This document shows, piece by piece, positions 3,606 to 61,172 of a stretch of DNA of 64,000 bases (position 1 is its first letter; each line of letters opens with the position of its first letter). Source of the DNA: Notolepis coatsorum (Eukaryota; Chordata; Actinopteri; Aulopiformes; Paralepididae). The position numbers and the translations under genes were made by a program. The stretch spans positions 34,251,119 through 34,315,118 of the forward strand of contig OZ020593.1 of the NCBI GenBank assembly GCA_963971535.1, read 5' to 3'. The notes beneath the pieces are model-generated. The model saw nothing but the letters and a program-made list of their open reading frames with translations. It had not been told where the DNA came from and ran no database searches.

Positions 3606-3609
3606 TGTT

Positions 3610-4354: not shown

Positions 4355-4436
4355 AATGTCCACACACAATAACGCCCAATGGCCACACAGTAAAGGTTTG
4401 GGGTGTAAAACACCATACACAAGTCTATTCACGCTC

Positions 4437-12000: not shown

Positions 12001-13113
12001 TCACAAAGTCATGGGGTCATGGTCGTCATCGATAGTATCGGGGAGCCTTGGCAGTTCTATTAGCCTCGCCACGGGTCGGGTGTAGGTCCGCCCTTGGACG
12101 AGCACTTCAGCTGCTCGGACCTTTCCATCGGCACCGGTGATCACTTTTCTTACGCGGCCAGCCGGCCACATAGCTCGGGGTAGTGACTGGTCGATAATCA
12201 TGACGACTGTTCCTTCTGTCAAATTGTCTCTCTCTTTCACCCATTTCTGGCGGGTCTGTAGAGACGGTAGGTAGTGGAGTAGGAAGCTGTTCCAAAACTT
12301 GTCAGCCAATACTTGACTGTACCTCCACATTCTTCGGCCGTTCGCTTCTTCAGGCCTGTACATTGTCTGGGGTAGCGCGGGGTCCAGCCGCCCCATCAAG
12401 AGTGTGTTGGGGGTGACTGGGTCGACATCTGCTACATCACTTGAGACGTAACCGAGGGGCTTTGAGTTCAATACTCCCTTGATCTCCGTGAGGACTGTCA
12501 TTAAGACTTCTTCCGCCACGGTCTGGGCCCCAAGCACGGCGTACAGGGCTGTCTTTATAGAACGTACTTCTCGTTCCCAAGTTCCACCGAAGTGAGGTGC
12601 GTTCGGGGGATTAAACTGGAAGTCAATCTGGGATGGAGCGAGGTGGGTCTTAAGTTCTGGGCCCATAGCTTGGAAGCTCTCTCTCAGCTCTCTTTCTCCG
12701 CCTTTGAAGTTTGTCCCGTGATCAGACAATAATGTAGACGGTTTTCCTTTCCGTGATGTGAATCTTCGGAAGGCCATAAGGAATGAGTCTGTGCTCATGG
12801 TTGGAAGGAGTTCGATATGTATCGTTCTGGTGGTCATGCATTTGAATACAATACCCCACCGCTTCTCGGTTCCTCTTCCTTTCTTTATATACAGCGGGCC
12901 GAAACAGTCCATACCGGTGGAGTGAAAAGGCTTGTCGCCGAGTCGGAGGCGACAGGGAGGTAGGTCAGCCATCCGGGGTATACTGGGCTGGGCTCGCCAC
13001 TTACGACAGTCTAGACAGGTTCGCTGGAAGCGCCGCACTGCTTCTCTCCCTTGCAGTATCCAATAACGACGTCTGATCTCCGCGAAGACTCTCTGCCCCT
13101 GCGTGGTGCACAT
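12001..13113 (-). pseudogene. pol: BEL pol C-terminal part: integrase
   Basis: The 370-codon frame has the integrase core. It shows a CLDCRKW zinc-binding half, a first Asp in GMDCFGP, a second in LLSDHGTNF, and the Glu in GGTWEREV, giving a DDE triad. The C-terminal part (LPRAMWPAGRVRKV) resembles the DUF5641-type tail of BEL/Pao integrases. The His part of the HHCC finger lies in the overlapping frame 13001-13756, so a frameshift separates the two near 13090. All catalytic residues are present within this piece. It would insert the cDNA into the host genome if produced as part of an intact polyprotein. Confidence 0.85.
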
Positions 13114-13756
13114 CCTCGTCGTATTTCTTTATGATCAGCTCTGTGACCTTGTGTCGGCTGTTCAAGACTATCGGGTACTTGACGTCATCCGGTAAGTCTG
13201 GGGCTCTCCGCAGACGACCACCCACTCTGATTAGACTATGGGCGTCGCTCTCGGGGGCTAGGTGGAGCAGTCTGCTGTCTGATGGGACGGGCTTTGCTCC
13301 CTGTAGACAGTCTAGCTCATCGGGGAACGAGTCTCTCTGGGCTCGTTGTAGTAGAAGAAGTTCTGCTTCTTCGTAGTCAGCTGCTGAAATGTCAGTCGTG
13401 GGCTGAACCTCTGGGTGGTGCCACAGAAATGTCTTTAGCTGCGCACTCTGTAGGGTGAGGCAATCGTCTATGTCGGGGTCTGTGGAGACGAGTGTGTTCA
13501 ATCCACAGAACATAGGTTTCTTGTTTTCGGCCTCCTCTTTATTCGCCTCCCGTGGGGTGGGTGTAGGCCACTCTTCTTCGGGGAGCTTGAGAAACTCTGG
13601 TCCGTCACTGTAGAGGTTGTGACGGGTGAGGTCATCCAGGGACATTCCCCGGGTGATGACGTCAGCTGGGTTGTGTTTGGTGTCCACATACCTCCAGCTC
13701 GCTACTTCTCTTGAATCTCGGTGACTCTGACTCCCACGAAGACCTTGTATCTGCAC
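13001..13756 (-). pseudogene. pol: BEL pol middle part: RNase H end to integrase finger
   Basis: The frame begins in the RNase H C-terminal region, includes the BEL/Pao signature YVDTKHNPADVITRG, and ends at the integrase His pair (KKYDEDVHHAG). It overlaps the upstream pol frame near 13700-13756 and the integrase frame near 13001-13113, both in different phases. Two small indels have therefore split pol into three frames. The usable part is about 13095-13710. Confidence 0.8.
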
Positions 13757-16266
13757 GAATCAGACCGGATCCATGTGAGTACTGTCGTGGAGTCTGACCA
13801 CAAGATTGTTCTTTGCACCGGGATGGTGAGTTCACGTTGGATTAACGTGGCGAGCTGCGCTCCTGCTAGGGCTGCGCAGAGCTCTAGACGCGGGATAGAT
13901 TGTTGCTTTCGTGGGGCTATTCTTGAGCGAGCCAGGATGAAAGCAGTATGTATTTCTCCTCCCTCCTCTCGGGCACGCAAGTAGGCCACCGAACCGTAGG
14001 CTACTTCGGAGGCGTCGCTGAATACGTGCAGGTCCATCTTGCATGTCTCTGGCCTCACTGTGGGTGGGAAGTAGCTGCGGCGTATGTTAACACCTGGGAG
14101 TGAGCGGAGTTCCGTCTCCCACTCTCTCCATGTGGATGCAAGGTGTTCGGGTATGGGATCGTCCCAGCCCTGGTCCTTGTCCCATAGCGCTCTTACAATC
14201 ATCTTTGCCCTGGTGGTGTAAGGTAGAATACATCCCAACGGGTCATATTGTCTGGCGAGTGTTCTGTATACACTCCGTCTGGTGGTCGGTATTGCCGTCG
14301 ACCTTCCCTGCTCCTTGGTCAGGGGTTTGTGTCTATAATGGAGCGAGTCTGTTTTGAAGCGCCAGACTAGTCCTAGTGTCATTTCTTGGGCTTCTCCTGG
14401 GATGGTCGCCATCCAGGTCTCGCTGCTCGCTGCCTTGTCCTCTGGGGAGAGGCTGCGCAATACTTGCGGGTCGCTGCTGGCCCACTGCCTGAGATCAAAG
14501 CCGCCTTTGATCAGGGAGGCGCGGAGCTTGAGTAGAAGAGCCTCGGCTTCTTCTGGCGTCGAGACGCTTTGTAAACAGTTGTCCACGTAGAAACTATTTG
14601 TCACACTTTGTCGGACCTCTTCATCTGCTGCTGGGTCCTCTGCGACGTGTTTTTGTAGTGCAAACGTAGCACAGCATGGGCTGCATGTGGTTCCGAAAGG
14701 GAGGACTTCCCATTGATAGATGGCTGGTTGCTCATCCCCGATCCTCTCTCTCCATAGGAACCGCAGCAGGGGCTTGTCCTCCTCCACTAGTCTCACCTGC
14801 AGGAACATCCCTTCGATGTCGCCGCTGATGGCCACCTGGTCCTGGCGGAAGCGTAGTAGCACGCCTAGTAGAGAGGGGCCGAGTGTTGGGCCGGGCAAGA
14901 GCTCTTTATTCAGATTTTGTGATCCGATCTGGTAGCTGCAGTTAAACACAATACGATCCTTGCCGTTGTGGTGGACCTTGTGGTGCGGCACGTACCATGA
15001 TTCGGTCGTCTGATCGGCCTCTTTAATGTCAATTTTCTTTATGTGTCCCGCTGTGATTAGCTTGTTAATCTCAGCGCGGTACACAGTCTCTTGAGCGGGG
15101 TCTTTGGCTAGGCGCCGCTCTGTGTTCAATAGATACCGCTCCGTCGCTTCTTTTGTGGCGTGAAAGGTGGGCATTCCCTCTCGCCTCAGGAGTGGAGTTG
15201 CGTATCTCATCACTCCGTTGACTGTGACTCTCTTTGTCCCTTGCTCGAGGAGGGCTATAGCGTAAATATCTATCTTAGAACGAATGTCTTTCTTTTCGTT
15301 CTTAAAGGGCATTGTCTCTAGTGTCCATAGCCTCTCGACATGCTGCAGGAGAGTGGTGTCTTCTTCTGTCACTCTGGAGTGGAGGCAGCTAGTGGCTGCT
15401 GTTCGGTTAAGAGACTTGGCGAGGGGGCCTTGTAATGTCCATCCTAGGCGGGTCTCGACTGCTGCAGGACAACCTCTGGGTCCTGTATGGACCCGGTCTA
15501 TCGGGACTATGAGGTCTGCATGGTCGGAGCCTATCAGCAGGGTCGGGGTGGCACCGTCTATGAGCGGGATAGGTAGTTGACGCAGGTGCACATATTTATC
15601 CATCAGCTTGGCGATGGGGTAGGTGTACTGCGATAGTCCTATTTCTTGGCTGGTGAAAGCATTAGTAATCCTATACCGTCTCTCTGGCTGCCCGCTTGCT
15701 GCGATAGTGAAGGAGACATTCTCGCCCTTTATCGTCTTTAGATCTCTTCTTATTGTCCGAATCGTCATCTGGTTTTCGCTCCCCCGCAGCCCCAGCTGGG
15801 CCGCAGCGGACGCGAGGAGAAGGGTCTTCTCTGACCCGTCATCAAGGACGGCGTAAGTGTCCATGACCTTATCTTGGTAACTCAGTGTTACGCGGACCAC
15901 CTTTAAGAGCACCTGGGCGCCCCCGCTGCTAGCGGGGTCAATGTACATAACACTTGCCTTTGTGCTGCTGGATGGTGCAGGCTTTCTTCTGTTACTGTCG
16001 TGTAGGACATCTAGGTGGGCTCCGTCACACCGACTACACCTCTTCTTTAGGCGGCACTCGGCTGCCATGTGACTGCGCGCACATCGGTAACAGCGCCTGT
16101 TGGACTTTATCCAGTGACTCACTTCTTCAGCGGTCATCTTCTTGAACAGGTCACATTGTGACAACCAGTGTTCCTTTTCGCAGTACGGGCACACCATCTT
16201 CCACTTCTCTTTCATCGAGGGGGTACTGTGGTTCTTGCTGCTCGGTACTGATTCTGATTGGTGCAT
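13702..16266 (-). pseudogene. pol: BEL pol N-terminal part: zinc knuckles, protease, RT, RNase H
   Basis: 854-codon frame. Zinc knuckles lie at about residues 26-90 (CPYCEKEHWLSQC, CYRCARSHMAAEC, CSRCDGAHLDVLH). The aspartic protease active site is AVLDDGSE near residue 140, in the DUF1758 context typical of Pao. The RT has SGDIEGMFLQVRL and the catalytic box as FYVDN near residue 559, where many RTs have YVDD. RNase H begins HVFSDASEVAYGS and has IPRLELCAAL and LWSDSTTVL. It stops just after RNase H owing to a frameshift. The frame also differs from gag, with which it overlaps by about 115 bp, by either a further indel or a programmed shift. Confidence 0.9.
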
Positions 16267-18223
16267 GAGTCACCAATCTTCGGCCATCGTTTGCTCTCCT
16301 AGGTCCCTCTCTGGAGCTTGGTGTGCTCCGCACGAACGTATCCAACCGTAGGCTGCTGACTTCTCTCGCCAGGAAGTCGGCTAGGTCTAGGAGGGATGGC
16401 TCAGGACCGTTAGGATCACTGTGGTCTCTTTGCCGCCTGAAGCGCTCCTGTCGGGCGGGCGGCAGCTTCTCTAAAATCCTCTCGACATTCGAGTTTGCGT
16501 ATAGTTCGTGCATACCCTTTTCTCGTTGCGCCCCCAGCATCCCTACCAGGGATTGTACTTTGATAGACAGGTCGTCTAGTGAGCGATTGTCTGTTGCTGG
16601 GGGTAGGCGGTCAATATGCCTTATCTCTTGTATTACGTAATCCCATATGCGTCCATATCTTTGGTCTAGTGCTGCTAGAGCCGCTGTGTATGGGGTAGTA
16701 GAGGTGGCATAGGCCAGCGCTATGTTGTGCGCTCGGGGCACCTTCAGGTGCTTCAATAGGATAGCATACTTGTGGCGTTCATCAGCTACGTCAACCATCA
16801 TTGTCTCTAAGCACATCCGTAACTCCGTGTACTGTGCTCGGTTCTCATGGGTGAAGTCTGGAAACGTCGGTGTGCCAATGTATGACGCCGTAGATGGCTG
16901 GCACATCGGTGAGTGTTGGAAGAGAGGCCTCCTAGGCGAGTCTCCTCTTACGCCTCTCCGTGGGCTGGTACCGGCAGGGTACCATGGCCCGCGTATCCAG
17001 GTGCTATTCCTCGGGACTGGTTGTGCGTCATGCTCACCCGTGAATAGAGTCGGGGGTCTGTAGCGCAGAGCCGCGGGGGTAGAGCCTGGGCTGTACTGGA
17101 CCTCCTGGTCCCGTGGAGTTCTGTGCTGCTGTCGGGCTTGACTCTCCTCCTCTCCCTCTTCTTCTTCCTCTGTCAGGTCCTCTAGATCCTGTAGTCGTCT
17201 ATTTAGCCTCTCCGCGGTGTATACCGTTCCTTCCTTGTAGCTGGGTCTCACTGGGACCGGTCGGGGAGGGAGTTCGGAGGGGGGTATAGGCTCTCTCTGG
17301 TGGTCGGGCTCAGGGTCGCTTAATCGGTTAGGGGAGGGTGCCCTTGACCCGTGTCTTGACGAGGCCCTGGAACCCCGTGTGGAGGGAGGGGGTGTCGCCC
17401 TGGCGATCAGCTGCTCCATTAGCTGCACTTGTAATCGGTCGCGCTCGGCTTCGCGCTTGGTGAGAGCGATGTCGCGCTCTGCTTCGCGCTTGGTGAGAGC
17501 GATGTCGCGCTCTGCTTCTCTTTGGGCAGCGGCGCGCTGGGCTTCGGCGGCGGCGCGCTGGGCTTCGGCGTGGTCTCTTACCATATTCTCTTCCGTCTGA
17601 AGGCGTCTAATCTCTAGACGTATACGATCCTCGTCGCTCCGTTGCTGCGCTTGGAGGCGTTCTCTTTCCATGGAAGAATGTTCGCGCTCACTAAGCGTCT
17701 GTGCTTGGAGCCGATCGCGCTCTGTGGAGGCTGCTAGGCTGGCGAGGAATGCCTGTGCCAGCATCTTGTCCGCCTCGCTGGGGGAAGACGCTGGTTGAGG
17801 TGATCCGCTCCTGGCAGTACTCGTTGGGGATGCGTTCTCCTGCGGGGAGTCCTGGAGCTCTATCTCCTCGGCGCTCTCCTCATCTTGTTCCGTGCAGAGT
17901 TCCATCTCTGGAGGGTTGTCTTCCTCCCGGAGCTCTCCGGGGACTACTTCTTCGGTCTTGGCGGGGGGTAAAGTCGTGTCAGTTCCCTCCTGGTCCCCAC
18001 CGTGAGCTTGGTCAGTTACATTAGAACCCACTAGGGCCTCTGTGGTCGGGGTATCCTGGTTGATAGGGTCGGACATAATTTTACTTTCTACTTTTACCGC
18101 GTTTACCGTTTGTAGAAGGCTAGGTAGTATACTGGCAGCGTAATCCTCTAAGTACTGAGGTGGCTGCCGTCTACGCTGCGGGCGTTCTACTTTAGGAGGA
18201 CCGTTTCGTGGAGTGTTCATCAT
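16151..18223 (-). CDS. gag: BEL gag
   Basis: About 690 codons from the first ATG (18223; the open frame extends a few codons further up without ATG). The N-terminus is basic (RPQRRRQPP). The middle is Glu/Arg-rich with tandem REAERDIALTK units and strong coiled-coil character. The C-terminal third (TPTFPDFTHENRAQYTEL, then ILEKLPPARQERFRRQ) resembles the DUF1759 capsid region of BEL/Pao Gag. No premature stop. The zinc knuckles are in the next frame and belong to pol here. It would build the intracellular particle. Its first ~95 codons are duplicated at 10236-10523. Confidence 0.85.
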   Translation of the reverse strand: MMNTPRNGPPKVERPQRRRQPPQYLEDYAASILPSLLQTVNAVKVESKIMSDPINQDTPTTEALVGSNVTDQAHGGDQEGTDTTLPPAKTEEVVPGELREEDNPPEMELCTEQDEESAEEIELQDSPQENASPTSTARSGSPQPASSPSEADKMLAQAFLASLAASTERDRLQAQTLSEREHSSMERERLQAQQRSDEDRIRLEIRRLQTEENMVRDHAEAQRAAAEAQRAAAQREAERDIALTKREAERDIALTKREAERDRLQVQLMEQLIARATPPPSTRGSRASSRHGSRAPSPNRLSDPEPDHQREPIPPSELPPRPVPVRPSYKEGTVYTAERLNRRLQDLEDLTEEEEEGEEESQARQQHRTPRDQEVQYSPGSTPAALRYRPPTLFTGEHDAQPVPRNSTWIRGPWYPAGTSPRRGVRGDSPRRPLFQHSPMCQPSTASYIGTPTFPDFTHENRAQYTELRMCLETMMVDVADERHKYAILLKHLKVPRAHNIALAYATSTTPYTAALAALDQRYGRIWDYVIQEIRHIDRLPPATDNRSLDDLSIKVQSLVGMLGAQREKGMHELYANSNVERILEKLPPARQERFRRQRDHSDPNGPEPSLLDLADFLAREVSSLRLDTFVRSTPSSREGPRRANDGRRLVTHAPIRISTEQQEPQYPLDEREVEDGVPVLRKGTLVVTM

Positions 18224-18270
18224 AGGCCATTTCAATATTAATACCACTATATTAATATTACACTAATTAC

Positions 18271-21216: not shown

Positions 21217-21457
21217 TTAACACATTCGGGGCCATTGGGATGCGTCTAATAAATCTCTAGAGCAGTGGTTCCCAAAGTCGGGGTCGCGACCCAAAGGTGG
21301 GCCGCGAGCAGCCACGGATGGGCCGCGAGATGATTAAAAAAAAATTAAAAAAAAAAAAAAAAAAAAAAAAGATTTTGTCAGGCCACTGAACTTAGAAGCA
21401 GGCCAGGACAGTGTTTCTAGTTGTATTCTAAAATTCTATTCTATTGTATTCTAAAAT

Positions 21458-22860
21458 GTGACTATATGGTTTTATATTAACTTAATAAATCGCCCTCCAG
21501 GTCCCCTCGATCACTTCATAGATGAGCTGGACATGCTTCTAAGCTCCTTACCGGAAGATGGTACCCCGCTCCTTCTATTGGGCGACTTCAACCTGCCTGA
21601 CTCATCTCAGTCGGTCCCAGTGGTCTCCCTCCTACAACAATTTGACCTGACTCCCACTGCCATGCCTCCCACCCACAAAGCAGGCAACTCCTTGGATCTC
21701 ATATTTTCCCGTAACTCCAGCATCATTAACACCACGGTAACTCCCCTACATGTATCTGACCATTCCTTCATATCCTTCTCACTAACTCTCATGCTTAACC
21801 GAAAGGTCTTCACCCCAACTCAAACCGTCTCACTCAGACGTAACCTGGCCTCCCTATCCCCCTCCACCCTCTCCTCTGACATAATATCCGCTCTACCTTT
21901 GAGTGACACCTTCTCTGCTCTCCCCACAGAGATGGCAACCTCCACCCTCCTCTCAGCCCTTGCAACCTCCTTTGACAAGCTCTGTCCCCTCGTTGAGAAA
22001 CCTGCCCGCCGTTCCCCACCCAGTCCATGGCTGACGGATGCAGTGAGAGAACAAAGACAGGTCCTGAGAGCGGCTGAGAGGAAGTATAGAAAATCACGCC
22101 TCACTGCTGACATCGACACATATCACAACCTCTTGTTAACATTCTCCAAAACCATTACTAATGCCAAAGCTTCTTTCTTTCACCATAGGATCGAGGCCTC
22201 TGCCAAGAATCTTCGCAAACTGCATGCTACCATGTCCTCCCTCCTCACTCCCCCCCCACCCCCTCCTCCCTCATCTTTTTCTGCCGAAGACTTTGCGATC
22301 TTCTTTGAGGAAAAAGTGGAGAACATCCGCAGCTCCTTCTCCCAACCCCCACCCATTCCAAACGCTGAATCGAGAACCTCATCCTTCACTCTGTCATCTT
22401 TCTCTCCCATTACAGAAGCCGAGACCCTGACACTGGTAACGTCGAACCGTCCGACTACATGCCAGCTGGACCAGCTACCCTCCCCACTCCTCCAGACCAT
22501 AGCACCGGACATCCTCCCATTCCTAACTGCAACCATCAACTCCTCACTCAACTCGGGGGTGGTCCCCACCTCCCTAAAACAAGCCAGAGTCACGCCCCTC
22601 ATAAAAAAACCAACCCTGAACCCCACCGTCATAGCCAACTATCGTCCTGTCTCTCTTCTCTCCTTTCTTTCTAAAACACTTGAACGTGCTGTATCCAACC
22701 AACTTACTGCTTATCTCTTACAGAATGACCTCCTAGACCCCAATCAGTCTGGCTTCCGGACTGGCCACTCCACAGAAACGGCCCTCATTGCGGTCACAGA
22801 GGCACTTCACTTAGCAACAGCGAAAGGCCTCTCCTGTCCTGATTCTCCTAGATCTATCTG
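21458..22860 (+). pseudogene. L2-type ORF2, part 1: endonuclease end and RT start
   Basis: The endonuclease shows LLLLGDFNLPD and HVSDHSFISFSL, the C-terminal motifs of APE-type nucleases. After a linker, the RT starts with VTPLIKKPTLNP, NYRPVSLLSFLSKTLER and QSGFRTGHSTETAL, the last being highly characteristic of L2/CR1-group LINEs. Near 22830-22860 the phase changes and the open frame to 23071 continues as nonsense. The first ~10 codons of the frame come from the hAT host sequence, not from the LINE. Confidence 0.85.
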
Positions 22861-24147
22861 CAGCCTTCGACACAGTCAACCATCAGATCCTCCTCGCGGC
22901 CCTCGCAGGAATGGGAGTGGCTGGATCTGCGCTGACATGGCTGACATCATACCTCAACGACCGCTCCTACCAAGTGTCATGGAGAGGGACTCTGTCGGCC
23001 ACCCGCCCCCTCCGGACGGGTGTCCCCCAGGGCTCGGTCCTAGGACCCCTTCTCTTCTCCCTCTACACTAAATCACTGGGTAACATTATCACGTCTCATG
23101 GCTTCTCATATCATTGTTATGCCGATGATACTCAACTCTTCCTCTCCTTCCCTCCCTCAGATATCCACGTCTCTGAGCGGATCTCGGCCTGTCTGTCCGA
23201 CATCTCCGCCTGGATGACGACCAACCACCTCAAACTGAACCTAAGCAAAACAGAATTGCTCCACCTGCCGGCCAAATCCTCCCCCCTGACCGACCTCTCC
23301 ATCACAGTCGAGAATGCAGCTGTGACCGCGTCCCCGACCGCCAAGAACCTTGGTGTTGTCCTCGACGACCAGTTGAACTTCTCTGCTCACATCGCAGCGA
23401 CAACCAGAACCTGCAGATTCCTCCTGAGCAACGTCAGAAGGATACGCCCCTTCCTGACAAAAGAAGCCACCCAACTCCTCATCCAATCAACAGTCATCTC
23501 CCGCCTCGACTACTGCAATGCACTGCTAGCTGGCCTCCCGGTCACTGCCACCAAGCCTCTTCAACTCATTCAAAACGCAGCGGCCCGCCTGATATCAAAC
23601 CTACCGAAGTCGGCCCATGTCACCCCACTTCTTAGGGACCTGCACTGGCTCCCCATTGCTGCACGTATCCGCTTCAAGGCCCTCGACCTAGCATACCGTG
23701 CAGCAAAGGGAACCGCTCCTGCCTACCTCCGGTCAATGGTCTCTAACTACACACCCTCAAGACCTCTACGCTCTGCATCTTCTGGCCGCCTCAGACCTAC
23801 TCCTATCCAAGCTCCCGGAGGGTCATCAAAGAGAAGCCGCCTATTCTCAGTCCTTGCCCCACAATGGTGGAATGAACTACCCATCCCAGTTAGGACAGCC
23901 GAATCCCGTCCAATCTTTCGCCGTCGACTAAAGACTCACTTCTTCAACCATTATCTGAAATGATTAAAAAAAACTGTCATGCACTTGTCCTAATAAACTA
24001 ACCTACACTGTAACACGCAACACTTGATGAACATTGTTACTCAGCTGATAGAGTTGTACCCTTCTTGCTGTCTTGTCGTACAGAACTTGTAAGTCGCTTT
24101 GGATAAAAGCGTCAGCTAAATGACTAAATGTAAATGTAAATGTAAAT
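21487..24147 (+). mobile_element. L2/Maui-type LINE, 5'-truncated
   Basis: It begins inside the endonuclease domain and ends with the tail TTTGGATAAAAGCGTCAGCTAAATGACTAAATGTAAATGTAAATG, which is typical of fish L2-like LINEs. It was inserted into a hAT element. About 2.66 kb remain of a roughly full ORF2 without its start. Confidence 0.85.
22860..23963 (+). pseudogene. L2-type ORF2, part 2: RT palm and C-terminus
   Basis: Continues the RT in a new phase: PQGSVLGPLLFSLY, then the catalytic CYADDTQLF, then LGVVLDDQLNFSAHI and SRLDYCNALLAGLP. The C-terminus ends TWWNEL-like (PQWWNELPIPVRTAES) and HFFNHYLK. It is complete to its normal stop at 23961-23963. One frameshift plus the missing 5' end make the copy non-functional. 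Confidence 0.85.
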
Positions 24148-47822: not shown

Positions 47823-48758
47823 TTAACACTTTGAGAGCCACTCACGGCTAATCTCGTGTTTACGATAGTTTCGTTGAAAGCCACTCACGAGATTTCTCGG
47901 AATTATTATTATTATTTTTTTTTAGCGATCTGAAATCATATTGCATCACGCGAGCCTACCCTAGCCTACCCAAGGGCCGCCGGCGATCAGATGTGAAGAA
48001 AGCGCCCCCTATTGTCTCCCAGATGGTAAATCACCCTTTTGGAATGGACTCAATGAAAATGGATGGGGGAAAAAAAATATTCCAGTCCACATTTTCCAGT
48101 CCACTGATGCAGCCGGGGTTACCAGAGTTCATTCTGGATCCTCTGAGCCCCGCGGATCATGAGTTCTACTGTATACACGTTAGATCTATACACTTATCGA
48201 TTTTTTCAAATGGTGATCAGGAATTGGAATATACCATTTGGATACCATCTGATGTCAGGTAAGGAATCTATGTTATCAGTGTTAGGATAATCAGACTCGT
48301 TTTCGAGGAGATATACGCTTTTTTGTGTTATGTGCTCCATCTGTTTCACTGTAAAATCCAAGAGGAAATGAAATCGGTTATTATCAGCGCGCGTCTCGAA
48401 CGTGAGTGCGTGCACGTATACTATTGATCATCTAGCGTTTATTTGAAAACGATTCATAAATAGGCCGACAAATGACAACGTTCTAGAATATTCCAGTAAA
48501 AGGCGATTATCACATAATGGGCTGTTTTTCACCTGAAAATGAGTGCTTTTCAAAATGCTCTCAAACGGAAATGAAGCGATAAAAAACCAATCTGCCTTGA
48601 CAACACTGACTGGAAAATGATTATTTGATAAGCGACGGGCAGATTAGACACAGCCATAATTTAAAACATAGATTAGGCGATATTAATGTTAACATTGGCG
48701 CCGATGGTGGCATTCAAGCACTGAGTCGTGCGGCCCCTGGTGGCACTGAAAGTGTTAA
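47823..48758 (-). mobile_element. TTAA-flanked element A6
   Basis: TTAA at 47823-47826 and 48755-48758. Ends CACTTTGAGAGCC and GGCACTGAAAGTG. The interior is in the opposite orientation to A1 and shares GCCCCCTATTGTCTCCCAGATGG and TTTTGGAATGGACTCAATGAA. These conserved blocks translate by chance into similar short frames. No transposase. Confidence 0.82.
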
Positions 48759-51265: not shown

Positions 51266-52359
51266 TAACATCACTCAAGTCTTTCAAGTATTGTGAGCTG
51301 TGGCCTGCTGAGTGTAAACACCAACCAACATGTGTCAGCTACAATAACTATTTTCTGACAGTATTTTTCACATTTTCAGAACGCATTATGACCACCTGCC
51401 ATCAGAAAGTCTCGCTGAGTCATGGTCAACCCCACGCTAACAGCGGCTGGTCTGTTGTTCCATCATTTAATTTCTTTGCCGACAAAACCCTGCCTGTGCT
51501 TTAGCTTCGCCTATTTTATAAACCTAACCTATGCATTTAAAAAGTACTGAATCTCTTAACACATTGTGTGCCGACAGGGGGTGTGCTATTTATCGCTTGT
51601 ATGCCACCACTCTAGTCAATGAGAGGGCGAGCACATTTGCAAACGCATAAACTATATCTTAAATTATGGCTATGTGTCTAATACGCCTGTCGCTTATCAA
51701 TGACTTGCTTGCAGTCAACATGTATGAAACGGATTGTTTTTTCATCAGTACATTTCCGTGTTATACCGTTTTGAATACGAGTATAGTTTTGGAGAGTTCT
51801 AGAAAAAAAATAGATTTTGCAGGAATAGCCCTTTACTGGAATACACACAACACGTTGTCATTTTTCGGCCTATTTATGAATCGTTTTCAAATAAACGCTA
51901 GATTATCGATAGTATATGTGTACTATATGTGTAAAAATCGATTATCCATGACCTGGTCGCCTGAATACTTTCGACAACAAAGTCGTGTTTCCGCGTCTCT
52001 GATTGGCCAGGTCATGTGACATGTACACCCAATCGTGGGACTGCAAGTTTTTGGATGGTTAAGCTTAGGCGCTCTTTCGAAGTTGGTTAAGGTTAGAGTT
52101 TGTCTTAGAGCATGGCGATAGAACACCTGCCCTGATTCCAAACTCTAACCATAACCAACTGTGAAAGAGTCGCCTAAACTTAACCAGTGATAAACTAGGC
52201 ATTAGGTACAGTAGTTTGCAGGCTGTTCGACCCGGAAATAGGCGCAGAACTTGCCGTCCCACGATTGGCGCACATGTCACATGACCTGGTCAATCAGAGC
52301 GCAAAACTCGAACGGGGAAACACAAATTTGTTGTCGAAAGCACTGGCGGAGACCGTGGT

Positions 52360-52900
52360 CGAAAAACGTGCGCTTAAGTGCCCTTTTGAGTGAAAGAAAT
52401 TAGAGGATGTGCCCTATTGGTGCCCCCACGGTTGAAAAACGCGCGCTTAAGTGCCCTTTTGAATGAAAGAAATTAGAGGATGTGCCCTATTGGTGCCCCC
52501 ACGGTTGAAAAACGCGCGCTAAAGTGCCCTTTTGAGTGAAAGAAATTAGAGGATGTGCCCTATTGGTGCCCCCACGGTTGAAAAAGGCGCGCTTAAGTGC
52601 CCTTTTGAGTGAAAGAAATTAGAGGATGTGCCCTATTGGTGCCCCCACGGTTGAAAAACGCGCACTAAAGTGCCCTTTTGAGTGGCGAAAAATAGAAGGT
52701 GTGCCCTATTGGTGCTCTTCCAATGGTCTAAACTTGACCATGTGCCCCACGGTTAAGTAATATCACGCAAAAGTGCCCTTTTGAGTGAAAAAAATTAGAG
52801 GACGTGCCCTATTGGTGCCCCTCTGATGGTTAAACGTGACCATGTGCCCCCACAGTTGAAAACATTGCGCTAAATGCCCTTTTTGAGTGTTGAAAATGAG
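52360..52900 (+). repeat. 73-bp tandem repeats at the hAT left end
   Basis: The motif AAGTGCCCTTTTGAG starts at 52376, 52449, 52522, 52595 and 52668, an exact 73-bp period. Diverged longer units follow at about 52771 and 52866, with CCAATGGTCTAAACTTGACC inserts. It ends where the transposase frame begins. Confidence 0.93.
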
Positions 52901-52946
52901 AGGACGTGCCCATTGGTGCCCTTCCAATGGTCATGTGCCCCACGGC

Positions 52947-54854
52947 ATGGTAAGATGGAGCAACTTCAAACAGAGACCACTGGAAGAGGCTTTCAGGAGG
53001 GCAGACGTAGAATGCCAAGCCAAAAGAGAACAGGAACGACAAAGAAACAGGGAGCTAATGACAAGACTGGTAGACATCACATTGTATCTTGCACGGCAAG
53101 ATGGGGCGTTCAGGGGTCATGATGAAAGTGGTACATCTTTGAACAAAGGGAATTTCCTTGAACTTGTACAGCTACTTGCAAAATATGACTCCACCATCAA
53201 AATGCACCTTGATCAAATCAATCACATCCAGTCTCAACAGAAAAAACCACAGACATCACTGTTGTCCTACAAGACACAGAATGACATAATCAGTGCCCTT
53301 GCCACCTATGTCAGAAGAGTAATTCTCAAAGAAATGGAAGATTCCAAAATATTCTCCATTCTCTTGGATGAGACAACTGATGTTTCTCATGTCGAACAAG
53401 TGTCCTTTGTTGTTCGCTTTGTCCATCAGATGGAAATCAAGGAGATATTTTTACAAGTTTGTGATGTGAGTGGAACAAAAGCAAAATTATTGGAGAATGT
53501 TGTGATGACATTCCTTGAGGAGAATGGATTAAAAGTGGAAGACATCAGGGGCCAAGGCTACGATGGAGCCGCAAATATGAGCGGAAGCTACAGCGGTCTG
53601 CAGTCGCGAATTCAGAGCCACAATGAGAAAGCTTTATACGTGCACTGCCATGCCCACTGTCTCAACCTGGTCTTGGTGGAGAGTGCCAAATCAAGCCAGC
53701 ATTTTGTTCGGTTTTTCAATTTAGTTGAAAATCTGTACACTTTCATATCCAGATCTCCAAAACGCCACGCTGCGTTTGTGAAAATGCAACAGACCATGTA
53801 CCCTGGCCAAAGACTCTGTGAACTGAAAAGGCTGTCTGACACATGGTGGGCGTGTAGAGAAGATGCTCTGAGATCCCTGAAGAAGGTCCTTTCTGCTGTG
53901 GTGAAGCTGTTTCAGAACATGGCTGATAGTGATCCACCAGACTCTGCAGCAGGTGATGCCCGGATGCTCTTGCGTAGCATAGATTTTGAATGTATGCTAT
54001 GCATGGAGATTGCCACACCTGTCTTCAATGAGACTGCCATCGCATCTGCTTCACTTCAGAGAAAATACCTTGACTTGTCAGCATCATACACCATTGTGGA
54101 GGGAGTCATACAAAGAGTGAAAGCAATGAGGAAGGATGAGGAGTTCATGGTCCTTTTCTCAAAAGCAAAAGGGCAAGCAGAGGCAGCAGGCATTGAGGTG
54201 CCAGAAGAAATACCTGGACAAACAAGACGCAGGAAGGTACCTCAAAGGTACAGGTATAGCTCTCAATCTGCTACAGAGGACTACCAAGTCCAAGACTTGG
54301 AGGAGCACTACCGGGGAAAGGTGTTCTTTACCTTTCTTGTCATACTCTCCCATGAGCTACACCGAAGATTCAAAGGGAAGGATGACACGCCTACTGGGTC
54401 AATCCTATCAGGTCTTCACTGCCTTACCATCTCAAGTCACTGGAAGGGCATGACAAACGACACAGCTGCTGTATCTGTCAGAGATGTGTGCCAGTTTTAT
54501 GATGTAGAGGAAGAGAATGTTGTCACCGAACTCAAGGTATTCCACTCTTCATATGCTCTCTCCTCCAACAATGTCAAAGCTGCGCTTAAGTGCCTTAAAG
54601 ACAATGATGTGGAATCTGTTTTCCCAAATATAACCATGCTCCTCAAAACATATGCTACAATACCAGTGACAACTGCTTCAGTAGAGCGATCATTCTCTAA
54701 ACTGAAGCTGATCGAAACCCAGCTCAGAAACCGATGTGGGGAAAAAAGGCTCTCTGATCTTATGCTGCTTTCAATTGAGAGGGATATCCCAATTGATCAT
54801 AATGAGGTCATTGACATATATAAACAGAGGACCAAAAGACGAATTCTGCTATGA
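52947..54854 (+). CDS. hAT transposase (ZMYM/DUF4371 type), uninterrupted
   Basis: About 635 codons from the ATG at 52947. The frame is open back to 52887, with another ATG at 52896, but that part is tandem repeat. Order: Lys/Arg/Glu-rich start (RQRNRELMTRLVDITLYLA), GAFRGHDESGTSLNKGNF, then catalytic-core motifs ILLDETTDVSHVEQ and GYDGAANMSG, CHAHCLNLVLVESAK, WWACREDALR. The C-terminal dimerisation domain has IPVTTASVERSFSKLKLI through DIYKQRTKRR. No stop or frameshift. It lacks the upstream TTF-type zinc finger found in the relative at 28-31 kb; either an upstream exon was lost or the tandem array replaced it. It would cut and paste elements with matching ends. Confidence 0.82.
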   Translation: MVRWSNFKQRPLEEAFRRADVECQAKREQERQRNRELMTRLVDITLYLARQDGAFRGHDESGTSLNKGNFLELVQLLAKYDSTIKMHLDQINHIQSQQKKPQTSLLSYKTQNDIISALATYVRRVILKEMEDSKIFSILLDETTDVSHVEQVSFVVRFVHQMEIKEIFLQVCDVSGTKAKLLENVVMTFLEENGLKVEDIRGQGYDGAANMSGSYSGLQSRIQSHNEKALYVHCHAHCLNLVLVESAKSSQHFVRFFNLVENLYTFISRSPKRHAAFVKMQQTMYPGQRLCELKRLSDTWWACREDALRSLKKVLSAVVKLFQNMADSDPPDSAAGDARMLLRSIDFECMLCMEIATPVFNETAIASASLQRKYLDLSASYTIVEGVIQRVKAMRKDEEFMVLFSKAKGQAEAAGIEVPEEIPGQTRRRKVPQRYRYSSQSATEDYQVQDLEEHYRGKVFFTFLVILSHELHRRFKGKDDTPTGSILSGLHCLTISSHWKGMTNDTAAVSVRDVCQFYDVEEENVVTELKVFHSSYALSSNNVKAALKCLKDNDVESVFPNITMLLKTYATIPVTTASVERSFSKLKLIETQLRNRCGEKRLSDLMLLSIERDIPIDHNEVIDIYKQRTKRRILL

Positions 54855-55017
54855 CTCCCCCACCCACCATTCCATTGCAGCAATGGAGAGCCAGCACATA
54901 CAAATCTGTCCATGAAAATAACCAACATATTTTCATTAGAGGTGATAGAGGAGAGGACAGAGGATGGCAGGAGGGAGGAGTCAGGTGGTACAATATAGTA
55001 AGTTTAATGGAGAGAAT
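54855..55017. other. hAT sequence between transposase and Rex1
   Basis: A 3'-flanking part of the hAT element, purine-rich at the end (GGAGAGGACAGAGGATGGCAGG), where Rex1 inserted. Confidence 0.5.
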
Positions 55018-58000
55018 GGGGAAGTCAAGTCAAGTCAAGTCAAGAGTTTTAATTGTCACGGCATACAGGTATACAATGAAATGCGGGTGGTCTTGCCCGC
55101 AACGATGTGCAATACAGTGGTACATATAATAGAATCAAAAGAAGAAAACAACATTGTGCAGTAACAGGTAACAGGTAACATGGCGTGACATCTCGGTATC
55201 TGTACATAGTTATTTACAGAGCATATGGGACATGCTAGTTAGCTTTGGTAGTGCAATACACTGTTCCTGTTATTCTAATTTAAAGTGTCCTTTCCTTTGG
55301 CCATAAGTGTGCGTGTGTGCGTCATGAGTGTGTGCCCGCTCATGTTAAAGTGTTAAGTGGCTGCTCGTGTGTGAGCATGCACAGTGTGCGTGTCGTGTGT
55401 GTGTTCATGTGTGCTTGTGTGTGGACAGTTCAATGTTCTGAGCACTCAATGTTCATTGTTCATGGCTCTGATGGCCTGGGGGAAGAAGCTGAGCCTAAGC
55501 CGCTCTGTCCTAGTAGCTGGGGTTCGCAGGTGTCTGCCTGACCTCAGCAGCTGAAACAGGCTGTTATTGGGGTGGTGAGGGTCTTTCATTATCCTGCAGG
55601 CTCTGGATTTGCACCTCTTGTTGTATAGAACCTGCAGGGGGGGTAGTGCAATACCCGTGGTACGCTCGGCTGAGCGCACCACTCTCTGTAGGGCCTTCTT
55701 GTCCTGTGCCGTGCTGTTTCCATACCAGGCAGTGATGTTTCCGGTCAGGATGCTCTCTACAGCTCCTGAGTAGAAGGACTGGAGTATCTTTCCCGATACT
55801 CTGAACTTCCTTAACTGTCTCAGGTGGTAGAGACGCTGTTTCGCCTTCTTTACTACTGTGTCTATGTGTGTTGACCATGTCAGGTCCTCTGAGATGTGGA
55901 CCCCCAGGTACTTGAAGCTGCTCACCCTGTCCACGGTAGCCCCGTTAATCATCAGTGGTGTGTGCGTCTCCTGCTGTCCTCTCCTATAATCCACGATCAG
56001 CTCCTTGGTTTTACCAATGTTCAGGAGCAGGCTGTTGTCCTGGCACCAGCGTTCCAGTACCTCAACCTCCTCCCGGTAGGCCTTCTCGTCGTTGTCCGAG
56101 ATCAGCCCCACCACCACCGTGTCATCTGCGAACTTCACTATGGAGTTGGAGCTGAACTTGGCCACACAGTCGTGTGTGTAGAGTGAGTACAGCAGGGGGC
56201 TCAGAACACAGCCCTGGGGGGACCCGATGCTCAGGGTGATGGTGTTGGAGGTCTGACCCCCCACCCTGACCACCTGGGGTCTTTCGCTCAGAAAGTCCAG
56301 TACCCAGGCGCTCAGGGCGGAGCTCAGACCTAGCTCGATCAGCTTGTCCACCAGTCTGGTGGGGACTATGGTGTTGAACGCTGAGCTGTAGTCAATGAAC
56401 AACAGTCTCACATAGCCCCCCTTCTGACGGTCAAGGTGCGAGAGGGTGCTGTGCAGTACCTGGGAGACCGCGTCGTCGGTGGACCTGTTTGTCCTGTATG
56501 CAAATTGCATAGGGTCCATATCACTGGGGAGGGAGGCACAAATGTGGTCCTTGACCAGCCTCTCGAAACATTTCATGACCACAGAGGTGAGTGCCACCGG
56601 TCTGTAGTCATTTGGACATGCTGGGGAGGGTTTCTTCGGCACAGGGATGATGGTAGACATCTTGAAGCAGGCAGGGACCACTGACTCCGCCAGTGATTGA
56701 TTAAATATGGCGGTGAACACAGGGGCCAGCTGGTTGGCACAGGTCTTGAGTATACGTCCTGTTATGCCATCTGGGCCAGCAGCCTTCCTGGTGTTCACCT
56801 GCATAAATGCTCTTCTCACACTGTGTTCCGACAACGAGAGAGCGCCCCCCCCCCCCCCCCCCCCGCGGTTGCCCCCCCCCTCCACAACAGCCGGCGCGCC
56901 AGTGACGTCACTAGCCGGAGAGCCACTGTCTACACCAAACCGAGCGTAGAAGATGTTGAGCTTGTCCGCGAGGGAGGCGTCGTCGCTCCCCATTGAGGGG
57001 GCGCTGACTTTATAGTCAGTTATTGTCTTCAGTCCCTGCCATAATCCTCTTGTGTCGTTTTGTGCCATTTGTGTCTCCAGTTTATCAGCATATGTCCTCT
57101 TAGCAAGTTTGACAGCCTTGCGTAGAGTATAGACTGAAGCCTTATACTCCTCCATGTTTCCTGACTCTCTACCCAGGTTGTAGGCGGTGGTACGAGAGTT
57201 CAGAGCTGCTCTAATAGTGCTATCCACCCACGGTTTCTGGTTTGGGAAAATCCGCACCGTTTTCCTGGGGACAATACCATCGGCTATTGTTGTAATGTAG
57301 CACACCACTGTGTCTGCGAGCTCGCTGACGTCACTGGCGCTTCCTTTGAATACATCCCAATCCGTGTCTGCAAGCACGTCCTGGAGCGTGGCCTCTGATT
57401 CGTCGGTCCACTTCTTTGTCTCACGTGACACGACGGCGTCGCGCAATCTCTGTTGATATGCCGGAAATAGCAAAATGGAGTCGTGGTCGCTCGAGCTTGT
57501 GGACCCCGTTAATGGCGGAGCGGCTACTGCCTTGTATCCGGCTCTGAACGGGGAATAACAGTGGTCGAGTGTGTTTTTCCCTCTGGTGGAGCAAGCGATG
57601 TGCTGAAAAAAGGACGGCATCACTTTCTTCAGGTTGGCCTGGTTGAAATCGCCGGCTACTACCATCGCTGCATCTGGATGTTTGATCTGGTGTTTGTTGA
57701 GATGATCGTGTAGTTCTCCCAGCGCTTTGCCCGTATTCGCGTGTGGGGGGATATATACGGCGGTCATGACGACCGCGGAGAACTCCCTAGGGAGATGAAA
57801 CGGACGGCACAGAATAGAAAGATGTTCCATGTCCGGGGAACACGAGTTTGAGAGAACATGCACCCCCTCGGGATTAACCCAGGAATTGTTCGTGATGAGG
57901 CAGACCCCGCCGCCGATGGTCTTTCCTGAGGCAGCGGTACGATCTGCACGTAAGACTGTAAAGGCATCCGAGGGAGATACGCTTTTGTCCGGAGTCGCCG

Positions 58001-58420
58001 ACGTGAGCCATGTCTCCGTGAGACATAAGATGTTGATGTCTCTCATCTCCCGTTGGAACCGGACCCTCGCCCTTAGGTCATCCATCCTACCCTCCAACGA
58101 ACGGGCATTCGCCAGAAAGATGGATGGAATTGCTGGGCGGTAAGCAGCTCTTTTTAGTCTCAGTCTGATACCTCCACGTCTCCCTCTGTGTCTCTTCCGC
58201 CATTCTCCCGTCTGATTTCTGCTGGCCATTCTAGGTCAAAAGTGTCTCCGACCTCCTCTTTGAGCCCGGGGTTCAGGTCCATAAGTGTCTGACGGTCGTA
58301 TGACGTACCCGCCAGTGTTGCTTTAAATAAAAAAGTAGAAAAAACAAACATAGTAGCTAAAAGTGAGTACATCGTTGCGGAGCTAAAACCAGAGGCGTCT
58401 GACCGGGGTCGCGTCCTCTA
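55018..58420 (-). mobile_element. Rex1 LINE, nearly complete
   Basis: Minus strand. The 3' UTR is 55018-55445, ending in GACTT units (plus strand TCAAGTCAAGTCAAG). ORF2 is 55446-58229. About 190 bp of 5' sequence lie above the ORF, then a GA-rich minisatellite. It lies within the hAT element. Confidence 0.88.
55446..58229 (-). CDS. Rex1 endonuclease/reverse transcriptase
   Basis: 927 codons from ATG without interruption. The APE-type endonuclease occupies about residues 35-260: LCLTETWL, VVAGDFNQANL, STSSSDHDSILL. RT occupies about residues 490-750: STIIPVPKKPSP, DYRPVALTSVVMKCFERLV, QFAYRTNRSTDDAV, LFIDYSSAFNTIVP, SPQGCVLSPLLYSLYTHD and catalytic FADDTVVVGL. The C-terminus has KYLGVHISEDLTWSTHI and ends RAMNNEH. 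It nicks DNA and reverse-transcribes its own RNA at the nick. The length and intact motifs suggest recent activity. A polyglycine-coding C tract (about 56847-56862) in the linker may be length-variable. A separate ORF1 is not seen. Confidence 0.92.
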   Translation of the reverse strand: MASRNQTGEWRKRHRGRRGGIRLRLKRAAYRPAIPSIFLANARSLEGRMDDLRARVRFQREMRDINILCLTETWLTSATPDKSVSPSDAFTVLRADRTAASGKTIGGGVCLITNNSWVNPEGVHVLSNSCSPDMEHLSILCRPFHLPREFSAVVMTAVYIPPHANTGKALGELHDHLNKHQIKHPDAAMVVAGDFNQANLKKVMPSFFQHIACSTRGKNTLDHCYSPFRAGYKAVAAPPLTGSTSSSDHDSILLFPAYQQRLRDAVVSRETKKWTDESEATLQDVLADTDWDVFKGSASDVSELADTVVCYITTIADGIVPRKTVRIFPNQKPWVDSTIRAALNSRTTAYNLGRESGNMEEYKASVYTLRKAVKLAKRTYADKLETQMAQNDTRGLWQGLKTITDYKVSAPSMGSDDASLADKLNIFYARFGVDSGSPASDVTGAPAVVEGGGNRGGGGGGGALSLSEHSVRRAFMQVNTRKAAGPDGITGRILKTCANQLAPVFTAIFNQSLAESVVPACFKMSTIIPVPKKPSPACPNDYRPVALTSVVMKCFERLVKDHICASLPSDMDPMQFAYRTNRSTDDAVSQVLHSTLSHLDRQKGGYVRLLFIDYSSAFNTIVPTRLVDKLIELGLSSALSAWVLDFLSERPQVVRVGGQTSNTITLSIGSPQGCVLSPLLYSLYTHDCVAKFSSNSIVKFADDTVVVGLISDNDEKAYREEVEVLERWCQDNSLLLNIGKTKELIVDYRRGQQETHTPLMINGATVDRVSSFKYLGVHISEDLTWSTHIDTVVKKAKQRLYHLRQLRKFRVSGKILQSFYSGAVESILTGNITAWYGNSTAQDKKALQRVVRSAERTTGIALPPLQVLYNKRCKSRACRIMKDPHHPNNSLFQLLRSGRHLRTPATRTERLRLSFFPQAIRAMNNEH

Positions 58421-58424
58421 TCCA

Positions 58425-58700
58425 GGAGGGGGAGGGAGAGAAAGAGAGGGAGAGAAGGAGAGGCCAGGAGGAGAGGACAGGATGAGAGAAGGAGAGTAAA
58501 GGACAGGAGGAGAGGAGAGGACAGGAGGAGAGAAGGGGAGTATAGGAGGAGAGAAGGGGAGTACAGGAGGAGAGTAGGGGAGTATAGGAGGAGAGAAGGG
58601 GAGGAGAGGGCAGGAGGAGAGAATGAGAGGAGGGGGAGTACAGGAGGAGAGGACATGAGGAGAGAAGGGAAGGAGAGAGAAAGGAAGAAGCTCAACGGCA
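58425..58700. repeat. GA-rich minisatellite next to Rex1 5' end
   Basis: Units of about 20 bp such as GGAGAGAAGGGGAGTATAGGA, ten or more copies. Purine-only stretches may form unusual structures. Confidence 0.88.
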
Positions 58701-59539
58701 CTCGAATTAACTTTAACTGTTAAACTGTTTTATGAAATAAAAATGTTAAAGGTGTATTGTTCCCTGTGTGTTTTTATCATAGAGGTGTGGTTATACTATT
58801 AATCTGGATTGTCTATCTATGTTATTCTAATGTTAATCTTAATCAAGGATGAAGACTATTTCATCATACATGACGCATCATAGCTTTTTGCTTACTGATG
58901 GGGTCCCATGTTGTGCAGTAGGTGCCCTTTTTTTATTTTCGCCCCTGCCCTTCAAACAGCCTGAGTCCGCCACTGGTCGAAAGTATAGACGCGACCTGGT
59001 CAGTGCTAACGTCATACACGCACACACAGCCACACACACACACGTTGTGAAATATGTGAAAAAAAACATCTGATTACCCCAAAACTGGTAAAATAGATTC
59101 CTTACCTCAGATCAGATGTTCTGCAAAAAGATTATTCCAATTCCTGATCGCCATTCCAAATATCGATCGCGTTTATTGACCCAGCGTTAGACCTCGAAAC
59201 ACATAATCCACACTGTTTCCAGTCCCCTCAATGAATGCAATAGTCTCAGGTTACATGCCTGAGAAGTAAAATGTGGAATCCGGAGTTTTTTTTCCTCATG
59301 CATTTCCATTGAGTCCATTCCAATGGGTGCAATACCATCCGGGAGACGATAGGGGGCGGTATTTGCCCTTTTCAAGCTCAGAGACAGTCCCAATGATAAC
59401 GTGAGGCTGGATGGATGAAAAATTAATGGATATCGCTAATAAAAGAAATAACGATTAAATAACGAGATTTCTCGTTGTTGGCACACAACGCATGGCGGCC
59501 AACAACAAGATTTGTCGTCGTTGGCACACAATGTGTTAA

Positions 59540-59994: not shown

Positions 59995-60298
59995 CAGTGG
60001 TTCCCAAACCTCTCCTCGAGACACCCCAGCCGTTCCATGTATCTGTTCAATTCCACCACCACCACACCTGATTCAACTCATAAAGGGCTAGTTAAGGCCA
60101 GGGGCGGAGCTAGGGGGTGGCTACTTGGGCTCAAGCCCTGAATGTTTTCTGAAAAGCCCCGAATCTATTTAAAAAAAAATTTAAAAAAAAATTGACAATT
60201 CATCATTGTTACATGAAAATATGTTTGCACCAGATTTAGCAGAAGCTCATTTCCATCTGTGGTCTATCCAGCTGCTAACTGTATTTGAGTGAGTTAAG

Positions 60299-60484
60299 TC
60301 TTGGTGTCATGGTAGACTCAGACCTAAGCTTTAAATCACAATCAACAAGTTGACAAAAACTTAATTCTTCCACCTTAGAAACATAGCATTTATAAATCAA
60401 AAGGACGCTGAAAACCAGATCCATGCCTTTATTTCAAGCCAACTCGACTACTGTAATGCACTCCTTACCGGCCTCCCGAAAAAA
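60299..60484 (+). pseudogene. LINE RT fragment
   Basis: With phase changes it reads LGVMVDSDLSFKSQ, FHLRNIA and FISSQLDYCNALLTGLPKK, the region after the RT catalytic motif in L2/CR1-type LINEs. Less than 200 bp survive. Confidence 0.7.
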
Positions 60485-60869
60485 TACGATGATAACTATT
60501 TTATTGCAATGCACTATTGCATTATTTTATTCTATTTTACTAACTATTTTATTGCACTGCACTATTTTACTTTGTATCAGTGAATCATAGACGCCTGGCC
60601 ATAAGAGCATTCGGAGCATCTCTGCTCTCCCACTATTGAACTTGGGGGAGCAAAGGTATGCTCTTGCTCCACCACTTTTTGATCATATGAAAAATATGAT
60701 ATATCCCCCCCCCATATATAAATCTAACCATAACTACGTTATGGTTAACTGAGTTTTATAGTGAAAAGAGCAGCTTTATTGGTCAAGATTGAAGGCTCTA
60801 TATTGCAGGGAATTGCACGTACAGGTTAATTAAATTCAAATCAAATCTGCAAAAAAAAATTAAAAAAAA

Positions 60870-60945
60870 AAAAAAAAAAAGGAAGGAAGGAAGGAAGGAA
60901 GGAAGGAAAAAAAAAAAAAAAGGAAGGAAGGAAAAAAAAAAAAAT
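60870..60945. repeat. A-tract and GGAA microsatellite
   Basis: A-runs alternate with GGAAGGAAGGAA blocks. Confidence 0.95.
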
Positions 60946-61172
60946 GCACCTATCTGGGCTAAGCCCCGGATCTCCTATAATCCTAAATCCGCCCCTGGTT
61001 AAGGCGAGACACCCCAGGTGAATAGGCAAATATACTTTTTTTTGTTGATTTTGAGATTTTGTTATATTTCGCTTCCTAAACATGTCTTCTATGAAACTAG
61101 TGACAATAAAACGTCAATAACACACATTTAGTTGTTTATTTTACTTCATTTTGCCTTATTGCATCCATAAAT

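Follow-up and report, generated by a model that had tools for sequence, protein, structure and literature searches.

A nest of four transposable elements was found in the window, the whole stretch of 64,000 nucleotides of Notolepis coatsorum DNA that was analysed here, and it is very probably the product of four independent transpositions at this locus, each by a different and unrelated system and each going into the element that preceded it. From the outside inward the order is A5, foldback, hAT and Rex1-like LINE (Table 1). Three of the four levels have empty sites in other copies from the 3.42 Gb genome of the same animal, the copies compared being the best-scoring among 475 to 4520 first-look candidates. 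These sites uphold the four-level nest and its order, both proposed in an earlier note, and the order of the outer three levels is also backed by divergence from relatives.

Table 1. Features of the nest, with positions in the window.
Feature	Position	Strand	Basis or remark
A5, TTAA-flanked piggyBac-like non-autonomous element	51556..59539	+	TTAA at each end; 17/17 terminal bases shared by the two ends
ATGTGTAC-TAT-ATGTGTA, possible footprint of an earlier hAT	51916..51933	+	inferred; two other A5 copies have inserts flanked by duplicates of this site
Left copy of foldback 9-bp duplication, GACCTGGTC	51950..51958	+	once or absent in A5 copies, never twice
Foldback main part, 382 of 391 bp, ending in hAT duplication GTCGAAAG	51959..52340	+	fold z -17.1; 39 other scored copies at 94-96%
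Left copy of hAT 8-bp duplication, GTCGAAAG	52333..52340	+	exact duplication
hAT transposon, ends CACTGGCGGA / TCCGCCACTG	52341..58975	+	terminal repeats 9/10; right terminus same in 16/19 other copies
73/103-bp tandem array within hAT left end	52357..52932	+	
hAT transposase frame, 655 codons, without N-terminal zinc-finger part	52887..54854	+	DUF4371 and hAT dimerisation domain
Rex1-like LINE, GTCAA-type tail	~55025..58424	-	missing at this place in 19/19 hAT copies; left joint uncertain by ~2 bases
Single reading frame of Rex1-like LINE, 929 codons, for endonuclease and reverse transcriptase	55446..58235	-	domain matches
GA-rich minisatellite of hAT, at Rex1 joint	58425..58690	+	directly next in 19 hAT copies without Rex1
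Right copy of hAT 8-bp duplication, GTCGAAAG	58976..58983	+	exact duplication
Foldback last 9 bases, TATAGACGC, beyond hAT	58984..58992	+	38/39 other copies end in these 9 bases, differing at 0-2 of them
Right copy of foldback 9-bp duplication, GACCTGGTC	58993..59001	+	empty A5 copies; foldback copies

Order of insertion

Divergence from the majority of relatives falls inward, from 4.8% in A5 (43/888 differences), a value that includes subfamily variation and stands beside a median of 5.1% for other A5 copies, to 2.8% in the foldback (11/386) and 0.4% in the hAT (4/717 and 0/256). The terminal branches measure 0.036 for A5, 0.019 for the foldback, and 0.006 and about 0 for the hAT. That the Rex1-like LINE is the youngest rests on its position and its open frame; in simulations at 1% divergence, the share of runs in which the frame stayed open was 4.9% when indels were assumed and 47% when stop codons alone were counted.

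Nesting by itself gives the order in which the elements entered each other and not that of their arrival at this locus, because a moving outer element can carry inner ones. The relative ages, which had been described as fixed, are therefore settled for entry, but not for arrival here. Since none of the inner insertions was found in any other copy examined, they most likely accumulated here singly, and we infer that all four events took place in situ and not as carried packages. A second copy of a sub-nest may exist outside the best-scoring copies that were compared.

A5 and the foldback

Without its inserts, A5 is about 0.94 kb long. Its first 301 bases have 39 other scored matches in the genome, and TTAA is present at the left end in 17 of 20 other copies. 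The TTAA flanks and matching terminal bases bear out the earlier reading of these ends, with the joint itself read from structure only. A5 is classed as piggyBac-like by the TTAA duplication at its ends; Kolobok is another TTAA superfamily. The nest would have begun when this non-autonomous element landed at a TTAA.

The foldback is 391 bp long, possesses the ends GCCTGAATA and TATAGACGC, and duplicates 9 bp (GACCTGGTC). Its inverted repeats form a hairpin that none of 100 shuffles equalled in the DNA folding score, which was computed on 51959-52341, one base beyond the main part. With the nest included, 37 of 40 foldback copies have 9-bp flanks matching at seven or more of nine bases (25 of the 40 exactly), and in the other three a recognisable 9-bp duplication is absent. 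Flank identity is 0.90 at the 9-bp register versus 0.18-0.39 in shifted registers.

Sixteen of 20 fetched A5 copies are contiguous across the foldback site and have no foldback there. The right-hand piece spans the site in L021 and L028, and the site is unreadable in L012 and L013 because the match is lost before it. Pieces like the foldback's inner arms lie within an insert of L012, without a foldback end, and no such end was found in any of the 20 A5 copies. Among the 16 contiguous copies, GACCTGGTC is single in ten, double in none and missing in six, one of which has ACCTGGTC and five another sequence. The foldback had been described as TA-flanked; these A5 copies and the foldback family place the 9-bp GACCTGGTC at its flanks instead. 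It would have entered the middle of A5 as the second element, with duplication of these 9 bp.

The hAT element

With the Rex1-like LINE inside, the hAT is 6635 bp long. It possesses short terminal inverted repeats, its transposase frame contains the hAT dimerisation domain (PF05699, E 4.3e-9), and its 8-bp duplication is exact, as first proposed. The left end was sought in eight other copies and found in one, where GTGTCTAT is present on both sides. In the nest, the hAT sits 9 bp in from the right end of the foldback, and not in its last 8 bases as had been thought, since nine further foldback bases follow the duplication. The foldback right end is reached uninterrupted in 38 of 39 other copies, and the right arm, once rejoined, aligns with the left arm without gaps through ATACTTTCGACAACAAA. 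When flanks were rejoined in the manner proposed earlier, the GTCGAAAG join held, but the TA join did not and is replaced by the 9-bp duplication.

Three frames upstream of the transposase frame gave no match to the N-terminal zinc finger above the curated score. The N-terminal part is readable in two longer hAT copies, in which the zinc-finger match is also below the curated score. The nest copy has lost sequence by deletion but is still a hAT by its ends. Because the zinc-finger part of the longer copies is missing, it was probably moved by the transposase of another copy, if the N-terminal loss came first. Its cut-and-paste insertion into the foldback would have been 9 bp short of the right end and would have made the 8-bp duplication. 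The left end of the hAT also resembles Rex1 coding DNA at 18 of 20 bases; we regard this likeness as chance, given that the hAT copy L091 suggests loss from the nest hAT of a short stretch directly after the first 10-11 bases.

The Rex1-like LINE

The element inside the hAT that the earlier note described as a nearly intact Rex1 is a LINE. Its single long frame combines an AP-type endonuclease and a reverse transcriptase, with matches to RVT_1 (E 4.8e-29) and Exo_endo_phos (E 8.2e-5, just below its curated score). The name Rex1 is retained from that note, and the element is known here by its domains and tail. All 19 hAT copies in which this place was read lack it. Another 39 hAT right-side matches begin at 58423 to 58449, 28 of them at 58425, and none extends into Rex1.

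No target duplication was found at the Rex1 joint. A 10-bp duplication, GGAGAGAATG, was considered and rejected because hAT copies put the Rex1 joints elsewhere. Contrary to the earlier claim, not every boundary of the nest is visible by eye, for the right Rex1 joint lies at the GA-rich minisatellite without a duplication and was placed via genome copies. Empty hAT copies suggest that the insertion deleted about 4 bp of the hAT. The LINE would have come last, copied into the hAT next to the minisatellite by target-primed reverse transcription, without duplication and with these few bases lost; the joints are read from empty hAT copies and the enzymology is presumed.

Alternative explanations

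The same nest could be drawn with the joints of the first reading, a foldback flanked by TA whose last 8 bases received the hAT, as TA is indeed present on both sides of CTTTCGAC...GTCGAAAG. However, foldback family copies run 9 bases further on each side with the 9-bp duplication outside (37/40), and a TA join would leave extra bases that are not seen in the A5 copies read; these findings refute such joints. Tried against the one close empty copy in the window, the TA join ranked 1010 among 1600 joins. A misassembly of separate loci is extremely improbable. The nest does contain a tandem array and a poly-C run, but a misjoin would not be expected to give exact duplications at two joints or flanks that resume the sequence of the interrupted family at three joints, and the window is free of any N.

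The order of nesting would differ from that of arrival if an outer element had brought inner ones as a pre-assembled package, for example a hAT that already contained Rex1, or an A5 containing the foldback. Nesting by itself is compatible with this, and the ends of A5 and hAT are intact, so that such packages could have been mobile. We nevertheless consider it unlikely: no foldback end occurs in the 20 A5 copies, no interruption is present in the other foldback copies with a readable right end (38 of 39), the 19 hAT copies have no Rex1 at the place, and a foldback interrupted 9 bp from one end would presumably be mobilised poorly. Four successive insertions at this locus remain the preferred reading. 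As a nest of ordinary transposons it is routine. It serves as a worked example: reading the boundaries by eye gave a wrong result at one level of the four, put the following insertion in the wrong place and overlooked the fourth, and family copies set these right.

Comparison with known systems and a possible target preference

In nested transposons of plants, nesting serves as a relative clock (PMC6911290), as it does here; DNA transposons and a LINE are mixed in the present nest, whereas the plant nests described there consist of LTR elements. Scans of viral contigs and genome contigs found no relative. The nest hAT shares the 8-bp duplication and short terminal repeats described for the hAT superfamily, e.g. 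Hermes, and GTCGAAAG fits nTnnnnAn; it differs from that description in its tandem array and in having no N-terminal zinc-finger part (PMC10368747). Rex1 / Babar elements, which a review relates to the CR1 clade, have an endonuclease, a reverse transcriptase and a short repeated sequence at the 3' end, as does the nest LINE. According to that review the endonuclease part is often lost; the nest copy keeps it (PMC6274825).

The foldback appears Foldback / Mutator-like by its inverted repeats and 9-bp duplication. Like Tm1, a Mutator/Foldback element of root-knot nematodes, it has long inverted repeats, occurs as small copies that are non-autonomous and duplicates mostly 9 bp of its target; however, its duplications follow a palindromic, GC-rich G N C C N G G N C, whereas the cited account of Tm1 reports no clear consensus (PMC3169594). 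Target motifs of the TIR elements treated in another study are palindromes, and that of the P element, GTCCGGAC, is GC-rich and similar in sequence to the foldback motif, although the P element duplicates 8 bp and the foldback 9 bp (PMC3276498).

In 2 of 20 A5 copies, ATGTGTAC is duplicated around two different hAT-like inserts. We tentatively suggest that the foldback family has a strong, P-like G N C C N G G N C target, and that A5 has been entered repeatedly via this site and via a hAT hot spot at ATGTGTAC, perhaps used before in the nest copy. If so, nesting here would follow sequence preference and not chance. The target motif of this high-copy foldback family and the repeated hAT target within A5 are by-products of the analysis that could be measured genome-wide, as a test of whether target preference underlies nesting. 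A 13-base match also exists between the A5 target and an arm of the foldback itself, and it may partly reflect the target motif.

Architecture of the nest

The nest is well supported as an ordinary one, with two joints corrected relative to an earlier note made from sequence alone. Its outermost element is A5, a piggyBac-like non-autonomous element, and its TTAA-flanked ends stand as first described. A5 holds a foldback, the foldback a hAT transposon, and the hAT a Rex1-like LINE. The genome compared comprises 3.42 Gb in 4787 contigs, and L-numbers denote copies elsewhere in it. The types of repeat present point to a ray-finned fish.

Features of the nest and other repeats in the window
Feature	Position	Strand	Remarks
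A5	51556-59539		TTAA at each end; 17 identical terminal bases
ATGTGTAC-TAT-ATGTGTA in A5	51916-51933		
Foldback (391 bp)	51959-52340 and 58984-58992		split by hAT
hAT duplication GTCGAAAG	52333-52340 and 58976-58983		either side of hAT
hAT	52341-58975		
73/103-bp tandem array	52357-52932		hAT left end
Rex1	about 55025-58424	minus	
Smaller nest	60099-60997		hAT-like element in another repeat
Uninterrupted copy of that repeat	62213-62090		
Diverged A5 relatives	4437-5307 and 47823-48758		TTAA at each end
A5-like copy	9607-10057		interrupted at 10041
A5-type end	21217		TTAAC...GCC
Pao/Bel-type retroelement pieces	12004-18262	minus	
Broken LINE	21455-23960		

The foldback and its target site

The foldback DNA folds with a z of -17.1, equalled by none of 100 shuffles. 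The TA flank first assigned to it has to be replaced by a 9-bp duplication: when compared with the most similar A5 copy within the window (near 9607), the TA join scores 14.5 and ranks 1010 among 1600 joins, whereas joins in the 9-bp register score 28-29. Of the other A5 copies that were scored, 39 in all, 20 were fetched, and none contains a foldback end. Sixteen of them align in one piece across the foldback site, where GACCTGGTC is single in ten, absent in six (one with ACCTGGTC, five with a different sequence there) and double in none. L021 and L028 are interrupted some 25 bases upstream by other inserts, and their right-hand piece spans the site; in L012 and L013 the match ends ahead of it, and an insert in L012 holds pieces resembling inner arms of the foldback.

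A total of 40 places, the nest and 39 others, all of which were read, were scored for the foldback family from 4078 first-look candidates. The elements end in GCCTGAATA and TATAGACGC, and their flanks agree in at least 7 of the 9 bases in 37 of the 40 copies, exactly in 25; the match is absent in L041, L061 and L064. When one flank is shifted by 1-5 bases, the identity averages 0.18-0.39, against 0.90 in register. In copies L030-L068 the duplications follow G N C C N G G N C, a motif that is both GC-rich and palindromic. Among the 25 sites with exact duplications, 20 carry G at position 1, 18 and 21 carry C at positions 3 and 4, 22 and 21 carry G at positions 6 and 7, and 17 carry C at position 9. 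Palindromy of these sites is 0.58, reached by none of 10,000 within-site shuffles, and that of 50 flanking 9-mers is 0.23. GACCTGGTC, the target in the nest, is fully palindromic about its centre.

In a Drosophila survey, elements of this sort have palindromic target motifs, that of the P element being GTCCGGAC (PMC3276498), like the site found here. For Tm1, a Mutator/Foldback family, the duplications are mostly of 8-10 bp, with 9 bp commonest as in this family, but without the clear consensus seen here (PMC3169594). The target behaviour of the foldback is thus of a known kind, since palindromic (P element) and 9-bp (Tm1) targets are already described. Among the titles listed in literature searches that did not include the motif itself, none refers to the present nest or to any foldback of fish having such a target.

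The hAT and Rex1 insertions

The duplication GTCGAAAG agrees with nTnnnnAn, the target pattern stated for Hermes (PMC10368747). Nine more foldback bases lie beyond it, so the hAT is not in the last 8 bases of the foldback, as had been claimed. Its insertion into the foldback is borne out: the right arm, once rejoined, aligns gap-free with the left, and the right end is uninterrupted in 38 of 39 other foldback copies, the exception (L041) being truncated. One of eight hAT left ends sought was found, with the 8-bp duplication GTGTCTAT.

The LINE possesses one 929-codon frame, which matches reverse transcriptase and, less strongly, endonuclease. From 475 hAT candidates, 19 of 39 other scored matches were read, and in all 19 the left joint continues into the GA minisatellite without Rex1, via GGGGAAGATAGGGAGGGGG or close variants, in keeping with the reported insertion. 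The 39 other matches to the right side begin at 58425 in 28 cases and within 58423-58449 overall. The joints are therefore placed, from these alignments, at about 55024 and about 58425. ATAG, present at the empty site, is absent here, and there is no duplication. Rex1-like pieces also occur in L084 (89%), in the transposase region between stretches matching 53174 and 53867, a different place from that in the nest, and elsewhere at the L070 hAT locus (75%).

The nest hAT transposase frame has 655 codons and lacks the N-terminal part, for which nothing upstream exceeded the curated score. Two longer copies that were translated (L089 and L092) have this part in frame, with a zinc-finger match under its own curated score. 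The tandem array takes its place in the nest, and six other copies share this form, with 3-9 units; the nest hAT was thus probably already non-autonomous when it moved. In neutral simulations of frame survival at 1% divergence, with assumed indels or stops only, the Rex1 frame stayed open in 4.9% and 47% of runs, and the hAT frame in 11% and 52%.

Order and age of the insertions

Nesting fixes the order in which the elements entered one another. None of the nest's inner insertions recurs in the other copies examined, the best-scoring ones only (foldback ends in 20 A5 copies, an interruption in 38 of 39 foldback copies, Rex1 at this place in 19 hAT copies), from which we infer that the events took place at this locus. 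Ages were measured as differences from the majority of relatives and as terminal branch lengths. A5 has 43 differences in 888 (4.8%; median of 16 others 5.1%; branch 0.036), a figure inflated by subfamily variation. The foldback has 11 in 386 (2.8%; 1.6% in 38 others, L041 dropped; branch 0.019), and the hAT 4 in 717 and 0 in 256 (medians 0.4% in 19 others and 0.8% in 16; branches 0.006 and about 0). The inward fall in divergence from A5 through foldback to hAT agrees with the outside-to-inside order. The earlier note took relative ages as fixed; nesting proves the order of entry only.

The same 8 bases, ATGTGTAC, stand on both sides of an insert with hAT-like ends in two of the 20 A5 copies, L021 and L028, the two inserts being different; this site is a candidate hot spot. 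At the same mid-A5 place the nest copy has the near-duplication ATGTGTAC-TAT-ATGTGTA and lacks about 25 family bases right after it, which looks like the footprint of a hAT excision and would then be a further and earlier event. The loss may instead be an A5 variant, since in L026, which has no footprint of this kind, much of that stretch is missing too.

Other repeats in the window

In the smaller adjoining nest, the hAT-like element has an exact GTTAAGGC duplication, and the uninterrupted copy of the host repeat matches the rejoined flanks save for a 14-base gap beside the site. The A5-like copy is interrupted by another TTAAC...GCC end, possibly of a further nested TTAA element or through a deletion. 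Pao peptidase, reverse transcriptase and weak integrase matches were found in the Pao/Bel-type pieces. The broken LINE matches reverse transcriptase and, weakly, endonuclease, in two frames.
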